Source: Pseudomonas wenzhouensis
GTDB taxonomy: Bacteria; Pseudomonadota; Gammaproteobacteria; Pseudomonadales; Pseudomonadaceae
DNA length: 64,000 bases
Direction of reading: 5' to 3'
NCBI RefSeq assembly: GCF_021029445.1
Contig: NZ_CP072610.1
Span: forward strand, 744,001-808,000
In this document: piece after piece, positions 20,923 to 22,110 of the stretch
Layout of the letters: every line of letters starts with the position of its first letter
How positions within the stretch are numbered: position 1 is the first letter of the stretch
Program-made: the position numbers and the translations under genes
The notes under the pieces: model-generated
The model's database searches: none
Seen by the model: the letters and a program-made list of their open reading frames with translations, nothing else
What the model was told of the DNA's origin: nothing

Positions 20923-20929
20923 TGTATTT

Positions 20930-21100
20930 TGTTTTTGCTCAAGTCGCTCTTGAGCACAAGGCACCCGGATGCCGTATCCACCCTTGGCGACAAGGCCGTG
21001 ATGTAGATTTCGCACCGGTTTGCCTGCTTTAACTTGCCAGAGATCGGACAGTATCTTCGACCCGGCCAAGCCGTGAGTCAGCATTCACAAGGTGGATCGC
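20930..21100 (+). ncRNA. bridge RNA of the IS110-family element (ends approximate)
   Basis: 5' stem-loop GCTCAAG/CTTGAGC at 20937-20955. Target-binding loop: left guide ATCCACCCT at 20976-20984 is identical to the flanking target 20914-20922; right guide TGTAG at 21002-21006 can pair with the far flank CTACG at 22095-22099 (one G-U pair); between them CCTTG-GCGA-CAAGG (20982-20995) is a GNRA-capped hairpin. Donor-binding loop: left guide ACAGTATCT at 21048-21056 is identical to the right end 22088-22096; right guide ACAAG at 21087-21091 is complementary to the left end CTTGT at 20921-20925; a CGGC-CAA-GCCG hairpin (21063-21073) lies between. This matches the known IS621 plan: 5' stem-loop, target loop, donor loop. 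Exact transcript ends are not visible. Confidence 0.8.
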
Positions 21101-21107
21101 GCAAGCC

Positions 21108-22088
21108 ATGAGCTCTTTTGACTTCATCCCTCTGGGAATCGACATATCCAAGAAGAAAATCGATTGCGCCCTGATGCTGGGTGCAAAATTCAAGAACAAG
21201 GTCTTCGCCAATAACCCCGAAGGGTTTGTCGGGTTGTGCGCTTGGATCGATCAGCACGCCCAAGCAACAGTGCACATCTGTATGGAGGCTACGGGCATCT
21301 ACTGGGAGGCAGTGGCTGTACATCTGGCCAATGCGGGGCATCGCGTCAGTGTCATCAATCCAGCCCTGGCCAAAGCCCATGCTCAATCGCTGGGTCTGCG
21401 TAGCAAGACTGATGCAATCGATGCAAGGGCGTTGGCTGATTATTGTCGGCAACGACAACCTGCCCTTTGGGTTGCTCCATCACTTTCGGAGCAGCGGTTA
21501 AAAGCGCTGGTACTGCGCCTTCAAGGCCTAGTGACCATGCGCACCGAGGAAAAGAACCGGATCGAGTCGGCCCGTGACTCGGTGCGTGAAAGTCTGGACA
21601 AGCACCTGCAATGGCTCGACGAAGAGATCAAGCGTATTGAACTGCAGATATCCCAGACGCTTGATGATGACCCGATGTTACGAGGCAAGCGTGAGCTGCT
21701 GACCTCCATCCCTGGTCTTGGGGAACGCACCTTATCCGTTCTATTGGCCTACGGCCTGGGAGGAGAACGCTTCGACAAGGCGCGCCAATTCGTTGCCTTT
21801 GCCGGCTTGAGCGTGCGTGCGTATGAGTCTGGCAGCAGCGTCAGGGGCAAGCCGCGGATGTCCAAGGTCGGTCACTCACGGCTGCGCAGTGCGCTGTACA
21901 TGCCCGCGATGGTGGCTCTGTACAGAACCGACTGGGGGCGTCGCTATCGTGACCGGCTTGCCGGTAACGGCAAGCCAGCCAAAGTCATCATCGGTGCCAT
22001 GATGCGCAAACTCGTGCATGTGGCCTTTGGCGTGCTGAAGTCCGGACGAAAGTTCGACCCCGAACTCCATGTCGCTTGCGCCAGATAA
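21108..22088 (+). CDS. IS110-family transposase (bridge-RNA-guided recombinase, IS621-like)
   Basis: 326 residues, the same length as IS621 transposase. The N-terminal RuvC-like DEDD domain has D12 (GIDISKKK), E60 (HICMEATG) and D102/D105 (KTDAIDARALADY). The C-terminal Transposase_20 domain has SIPGLGERT, FAGLSVRAYESGSSVRG and MSKVGHSRLRSALY; the serine at 241 in ESGSSVRG lines up with the IS621 nucleophile. No frameshift or stop is seen. It reads against the surrounding urea genes. The TAA ends at 22088, where the right-end donor sequence begins. Confidence 0.95.
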   Translation: MSSFDFIPLGIDISKKKIDCALMLGAKFKNKVFANNPEGFVGLCAWIDQHAQATVHICMEATGIYWEAVAVHLANAGHRVSVINPALAKAHAQSLGLRSKTDAIDARALADYCRQRQPALWVAPSLSEQRLKALVLRLQGLVTMRTEEKNRIESARDSVRESLDKHLQWLDEEIKRIELQISQTLDDDPMLRGKRELLTSIPGLGERTLSVLLAYGLGGERFDKARQFVAFAGLSVRAYESGSSVRGKPRMSKVGHSRLRSALYMPAMVALYRTDWGRRYRDRLAGNGKPAKVIIGAMMRKLVHVAFGVLKSGRKFDPELHVACAR

Positions 22089-22110
22089 CAGTATCTACGG
22101 CTGATCAGTT

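Follow-up and report, generated by a model that had tools for sequence, protein, structure and literature searches.

An IS621-like element of Pseudomonas wenzhouensis with a predicted bridge RNA matching its insertion sites in REP-like repeats

Organization of the locus

The window analysed (the whole stretch of 64,000 bases) carries at 20923-22096 a small, complete IS621-like insertion sequence of the IS110 family, IS110 group, with its own guide RNA. The features assigned to the element and to its insertion site, all on the forward strand, are the following (with the evidence used in brackets):

20898..20919, +, palindrome of the REP-like target, with arms at 20898-20904 and 20913-20919
20914..20922, +, left half of the target and core, ATCCACC CT (direct reading; guide-flank comparison)
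20921-22096, +, IS621-like element including both CT cores, 1176 bp
20923..22096, +, IS621-like element with one CT core, 1174 bp (genome copies and empty site)
20925..20930, +, -10-like TATTTT of the expected circle-junction promoter (junction scan)
20937..20955, +, 5' hairpin of the predicted bridge RNA (single-strand fold; inverted-repeat search)
20959..21025, +, stretch of the predicted bridge RNA spanning both target guides (covariation; covariance model)
20976..20984, +, left target guide ATCCACCCT, identical to the flank 20914-20922
21002..21006, +, right target guide TGTAG, pairing with CTACG at 22095-22099 with one G-U
21042..21098, +, stretch of the predicted bridge RNA spanning both donor guides (covariation; covariance model)
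21048..21056, +, left donor guide ACAGTATCT, identical to the right end 22088-22096
21087..21091, +, right donor guide ACAAG, pairing with the left end CTTGT at 20921-20925
21108..22088, +, recombinase gene, 326 aa, PF01548 and PF02371, NF033542 (open reading frame, domain and profile matches)
22076..22081, +, -35-like TTGCGC, which in the joined ends lies 17 bp from the -10 (junction scan)
22095..22099, +, core and right half of the target, CT ACG (direct reading; guide-flank comparison)

With a CT core at either end, the 1174-bp element may be written as 20923-22096 or as 20921-22094.

Recombinase and group assignment

The gene lies 3' of the predicted RNA and encodes a recombinase of the DEDD/serine type, which is recognized by the NCBIfam profile NF033542 (“IS110 family RNA-guided transposase”) with 232 bits for a cut-off of 140. 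It shares 57% identity over 318 residues with the E. coli IS621 transposase, and the residues D12, E60, D102, D105 and S241, said to be kept in the preliminary description of the locus, are all present and align with the IS621 catalytic residues D11, E60, D102, D105 and S241. The relatives of solved structure found by sequence are ISCro4 and IS621, the best being ISCro4 (structure 9t56, E 9e-116 over residues 9-322), and the nearest named protein is an IS110 transposase of Stutzerimonas stutzeri (P0008, 88% identical); both likenesses concern the protein alone. A protein search returned 2,673 relatives at E 1e-60 among 7,998 candidates scored; the 90% cluster of the recombinase comprises 21 sequences from 3 contigs, and the closest protein after it is 94% identical.

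Two traits of the IS1111 group were also considered. A bridge RNA in the right end was not found, the covariance model described below matching the left end only, with 8 bases following the stop codon. As to subterminal inverted repeats (7-17 bp), none of the 25 listed of 54 inverted repeats with a length of at least 9 joins both ends.

Predicted bridge RNA

A putative bridge RNA with target and donor loops precedes the gene within the left end. A covariance model was built from the aligned noncoding ends of 18 relatives, excluding the window element and with the structure given by hand. Searched on both strands of the 64,000 bases, it gave a single match, at 20959-21099 (104.5 bits, E 9.3e-25), exactly where the RNA had been proposed. 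In a second set of 18 loci the model found 16, namely the remaining seven copies of the host and nine further loci, and gave no match in L045 and L052; the nine include L012, L018 and L140, which had not been used to build it.

In an alignment of 19 sequences including the window element, 96.1% of the cells were paired and changes on both sides were seen in 17 of the 19 pairs; the covariation score was reached by none of 500 shuffles and was destroyed by sliding the partners. The structure was itself derived from this alignment (using RNAalifold in part, and by eye in part), a procedure that works in its favour. Single-strand folding of 20937-21113 showed the 5' hairpin and the target loop, with a fold only modestly better than that of shuffles (z -1.9, 7 of 200 as good). 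The target and donor loops predicted for the left noncoding end are supported by covariation and by the covariance model.

No bridge-RNA match was obtained with Rfam 15, whose sole match at gathering score in the window lies elsewhere, and its weak matches were all located at 22078-22200, around a G+C-rich hairpin downstream of the element. A G+C-rich inverted repeat (CCCTCTCCC type) was observed at 22110-22199, directly downstream of the element, parts of which match elsewhere in many genomes of the genus.

Direct reading of 20701-22400 confirmed each of the four guide matches around the CT core, which is common to the pairing with the target and to that with the ends of the element. The element also has an A-U following its right target guide and a G following its right donor guide; by our reading, these would correspond to the handshake bases of IS621 (compared with PMC11208158, in part).

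Copies in the host genome and empty site

The host genome (G000, one contig of 4,452,100 bases) contains eight copies, each of 1176 bp from CT to CT, and all eight insertions read CCACC/CT...CT/AC (the left flank ends with CCACC and the right one begins with AC). Every copy agrees with its own guide over positions -5 to -1, the core and the two bases that follow, and one of them (L008) has a mismatch with the guide at -7. The borders and the targeting rule, which had been read from a single copy, hold for the whole set: both borders are shared by the eight copies, and all sit at guide-predicted sites. The window copy (L001) and L002 are identical, and the six others share three substitutions (R107K, M190T and T199I); since all three lie in the gene, no noncoding difference separates any of the eight copies.

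Empty sites were searched by comparing the joined flanks with 296 genomes of the genus, and six of the loci found were aligned. At L167 the same intergenic stretch is present without the element and reads GGTGGATGGCTTCGGCCATCCACCCTACGG, with an uninterrupted ATCCACCCTACGG, which confirms the CT borders predicted for the window copy (for this one of the eight copies). Insertion at the core is therefore precise and without other duplication, as judged from the eight copies and, for the window copy, from this empty site as well. At L164 the stretch also lacks the element and the target is altered (CATCCACTCTGCGG), and at L160 ATCCACCCTACGG is intact within a rearranged repeat; in three relatives (L149-L151) parts of the outer flanks align at the locus and the target stretch does not.

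Full copies were found only in G000 in searches of 298 genomes of the genus and 144 relatives. A plasmid collection gave partial matches only (60-80% identity, 8 records); at E 1e-80, a relative was present in 3 genomes besides G000 of the 369 searched for the class, and in none besides G000 of the 398 searched for the phylum. In Stutzerimonas stutzeri CLN100 (L052 1481-1660), the remnant of a close relative was observed, in which a REP-like palindrome directly abuts the final portion of the gene and the right end ACAGTATCT is intact.

Target repeat and site choice within the genome

The target ATCCACC-CT-AC(A/G) corresponds to the stem and, on the other strand, the GTAG head of a REP-like repeat type of the host. 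A palindrome (arms of 7-9 exact bases) lies beside five of the eight copies, and the three AACCCACC sites (3 of the 8 copies) have no adjoining palindrome. For Haemophilus and Enterobacter, REPs that combine a GTAG head with a GGTGGG stem have been listed (PMC2817692, in part). A REP-associated tyrosine transposase gene adjoins copy L008 (L008 916-1578, minus strand; G000 4290026-4290364; NF047646, 198 bits), with three further GCCCACC sites within about 1.4 kb of it. In the window, a second GTAG-headed palindromic repeat (CGTAGGGTGG...CCACC) is found unoccupied at 20851-20883, about 40 bases to the left of the insertion.

Free sites compatible with the guide were counted in G000 using RYCCACCCTACR, giving 73 sites versus 4 for the reversed control. 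By hand count, these comprise 54 GCCCACC, 7 GTCCACC, 6 ATCCACC and 6 ACCCACC, and the eight occupied sites comprise 4 ATCCACC, 3 ACCCACC and 1 GCCCACC. The A that pairs with the guide at -7 is present in 7 of 8 occupied sites versus 12 of 73 free sites (Fisher, one-sided, 1e-4); among compatible sites, those pairing with this guide base are favoured by insertions. Among the sites with A at -7, base -6 is T in 4 occupied and 6 free sites and C in 3 occupied and 6 free sites; in this small set, a U-G pair at -6 serves as well as a U-A pair.

The motif YCCACCCTAC occurs in G000 at 94 free sites (9 for the reversed control) in addition to the eight occupied ones, and a second GTAG-headed motif, TCCGGGCTAC, at 237 sites (15 for the reversed control), none of which holds any of the eight copies. 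The distribution of the copies, eight in YCCACCCTAC and none in TCCGGGCTAC, has a hypergeometric probability of 5.5e-5, the copies being taken as independent. We infer that the 237 sites form a repeat family from their count and from a similar REP of P. mendocina (PMC2817692, in part). Two large GTAG-headed repeat types in one genome, of which only the one paired by the left guide is used, constitute a natural test of left-guide specificity; the same genome also informs on a tolerated wobble (-6) and a rarely tolerated mismatch (-7). Guide fit predicts high recombination for ATCCACCCTACG and ACCCACCCTACG, low recombination for GCCCACCCTACG and none for ATCCGGGCTACG, and a left guide ATCCGGG placed in the target loop is predicted to shift recombination to ATCCGGGCTACG.

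Guides, flanks and repeats across relatives

Guides and flanks were parsed in 39 elements (the 8 own copies, 30 named relatives and IS621), which yielded 18 guides and 26 distinct combinations of a 7-base left guide with its flank. Loci left out of the count were L012 (doubtful left end), L018 and L027 (left end not located), L032 and L034 (truncated at the end of a contig), L043-L045 and L047-L088 (partial or more distant), and L140-L142. Guide and flank were identical in 154 of 182 cells (shuffled mean 82.4, sd 7.0) and, when one element per guide was retained, in 111 of 126 cells (mean 58.8, sd 6.0), with none of 20,000 shuffles as high in either case; since the sequences are related, these results are not strict probabilities. 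Poor matches were seen in L009, L014, L025 and L030. Departures that a G-U pair can bridge numbered 13 versus 4 reverse transitions (one-sided binomial 0.025), with 11 transversions, and the target of IS621 itself has a G-U-bridged departure at position 4 (PMC11208160, in part).

The right guide ends with GTAG in 37 of the 39 elements, the two others being Xenorhabdus elements with ACAG; in L025, whose left guide fits poorly, the changed right guide ACAG stands at a fitting CTGT flank. The donor matches in relatives provide no independent evidence, because ends and core were located by fixed motifs. Of 37 flanks scored across the clade (L013 and L022 left out), 23 have an exact arm of at least 6 bases upstream of the insertion; seven of these arms, all in K. 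michiganensis, are just 6 bases long, a length that also arises in 3-10% of shuffled flanks.

The possibility that guides follow abundant repeats was examined using three patterns in 14 genomes. It holds for YCCACCCTAC in the host's own genome (94 versus 9). The motif TCCGGGCTAC is abundant in Klebsiella michiganensis (175 versus 8) and Phytobacter ursingii (104 versus 6), and is fitted by the guides GTCCGGG and ATCCGGG of Klebsiella michiganensis and Phytobacter elements. In the Desulfuromonadales genome of L023, whose guide is near that of the present element, enrichment of YCCACCCTAC is weak (17 versus 10). As a rule for every guide of the clade the idea was rejected, since it fails in two Methylomonas genomes, where ATCGGASCTAC, to which their guides are fitted, occurs 10 and 3 times versus 20 control sites in each; YCCACCCTAC is found there 17 versus 6 and 39 versus 13 times, though the guides do not fit it.

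A tentative reading of these three repeat patterns, one of them negative, is a two-speed bridge RNA, to which we give somewhat less than an even chance. The right guide would stay fixed on the GTAG head that RAYT-type REPs share, and the left guide would drift to the stem of one REP family of the host, with U or G at variable positions such that wobble covers sub-types. The insertion sequence would then be a host-adapted tracker of one REP family, ignoring a commoner family with the same head.

Junction promoter and proposed mechanism

Joining the two ends would create the circle junction ACAGTATCTTGTAT, in which a -35/-10-like pair, TTGCGC-17-TATTTT, matches 7 of 12 consensus bases, the lowest value of the set (8-11 in 19 other junctions, 8 in IS621). 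A pair of this kind with 17-bp spacing occurs at one fixed place in 20 distinct junctions and is the best or tied-best in each; it is the sole best in 18, and is tied with another pair in this element and in L010. In the unjoined element, no promoter was detected by a strict scan.

All parts of the element can be explained by the mechanism of IS621 (PMC11208160 and PMC11208158, both in part), from which we infer circle, transcript and catalysis. The recombinase would release a circular form of the element bearing a single CT core, and the joined right and left ends would form a promoter yielding a bridge RNA of about 170-180 nt. The donor loop would pair with the element's own ends (ACAGTAT-CT-TGT) and the target loop with ATCCACC-CT-AC(A/G) of the REP-like repeat, and recombination at CT would insert the element, leaving CT at both borders.

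Comparison with alternative explanations

The sequence, the predicted structure, the pairing, the borders, the eight copies and the choice of sites together support, in our view very strongly, an intact IS110-group (IS621-like) insertion sequence whose bridge RNA directs insertion into REP-like repeats at CT. Were the recombinase protein itself to recognize the repeat, the guide-like matches would be traces of common ancestry or coincidence; REPs are indeed also targeted by members of IS3, IS4, IS256 and IS5, outside IS110 (PMC1525189, in part). Such recognition by protein only is very improbable given that guides and flanks co-vary across the 18 guides, that the right guide ACAG of L025 lies at a CTGT flank, and that IS621 was shown to be RNA-guided (PMC11208160, in part).

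The eight copies could also have spread through duplication or homologous recombination of blocks containing REP and element, rather than through guided insertion, and their near identity (three shared differences) and the dispersal of the repeats would agree with this. The left flanks are alike over the repeat only and the right flanks diverge after the first few bases, from which the copies are considered as separate insertions; together with the uninterrupted site in a relative, which bears on the window copy's site alone, this makes block spread the least probable of the alternatives. That the element is a recently immobilised relic is unlikely, though less so than the preceding explanations: its putative junction promoter is weaker and the window copy differs by 3 aa from six others, but all eight copies keep the length of 1176 bp with at most three substitutions, and the catalytic residues are intact.

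Relation to known elements

IS621, its bridge RNA and its targeting of REPs are already in print; this kind of element was described in 2024 and its mechanism is known. The element shares with E. coli IS621 the donor ends (ACAGTATCT and CTTGTAT), the CT core, the order of the loops, CTAC to the right of the target, the place of the putative promoter at the circle junction and REP targets (those of IS621 from PMC11208160, in part). It differs by its left target guide (ATCCACC versus ATCGGGC), by the base before GTAG of the right guide (U versus C), by a shorter right end and by its junction -35/-10 match (7/12 versus 8/12). ISPpu9, ISPpu10 and ISPa11 of Pseudomonas are IS110-family elements in REPs (PMC1525189, in part), likened here by description only, and ISPa11 is stated to be of IS1111 type (PMC11187229, in part), whereas the present element belongs to the IS110 group.

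No paper recognisably about this element was found in the literature searched (partial coverage, ISfinder not included). The novelty lies in the member itself, in its programme, and in the fact that a single genome offers a natural test of whether the guide directs the choice between repeat types; beyond the preliminary description, the GTAG-headed repeat as target, the eight copies and a putative junction promoter weaker than those of relatives were recognized. A complete multi-copy bridge-RNA element is thereby added, with a programme that is legible in the sequence and can be compared with eight insertions, and its recombinase is a candidate tool for bridge editing.

Other observations

A match to Rfam RF02514 (5' ureB sRNA, 117 bits) was observed at 7828-8113 of the window, on the forward strand, antisense to a frame that we read as urease alpha-subunit-like (6560-8383, minus strand); conservation of the coding sequence may be all that it reflects. 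In G000, seven Y1 transposase frames of full length (152-153 aa), probably IS200-type elements, were found at 1747202-1853816, 2171737, 2426065 and 2908402.
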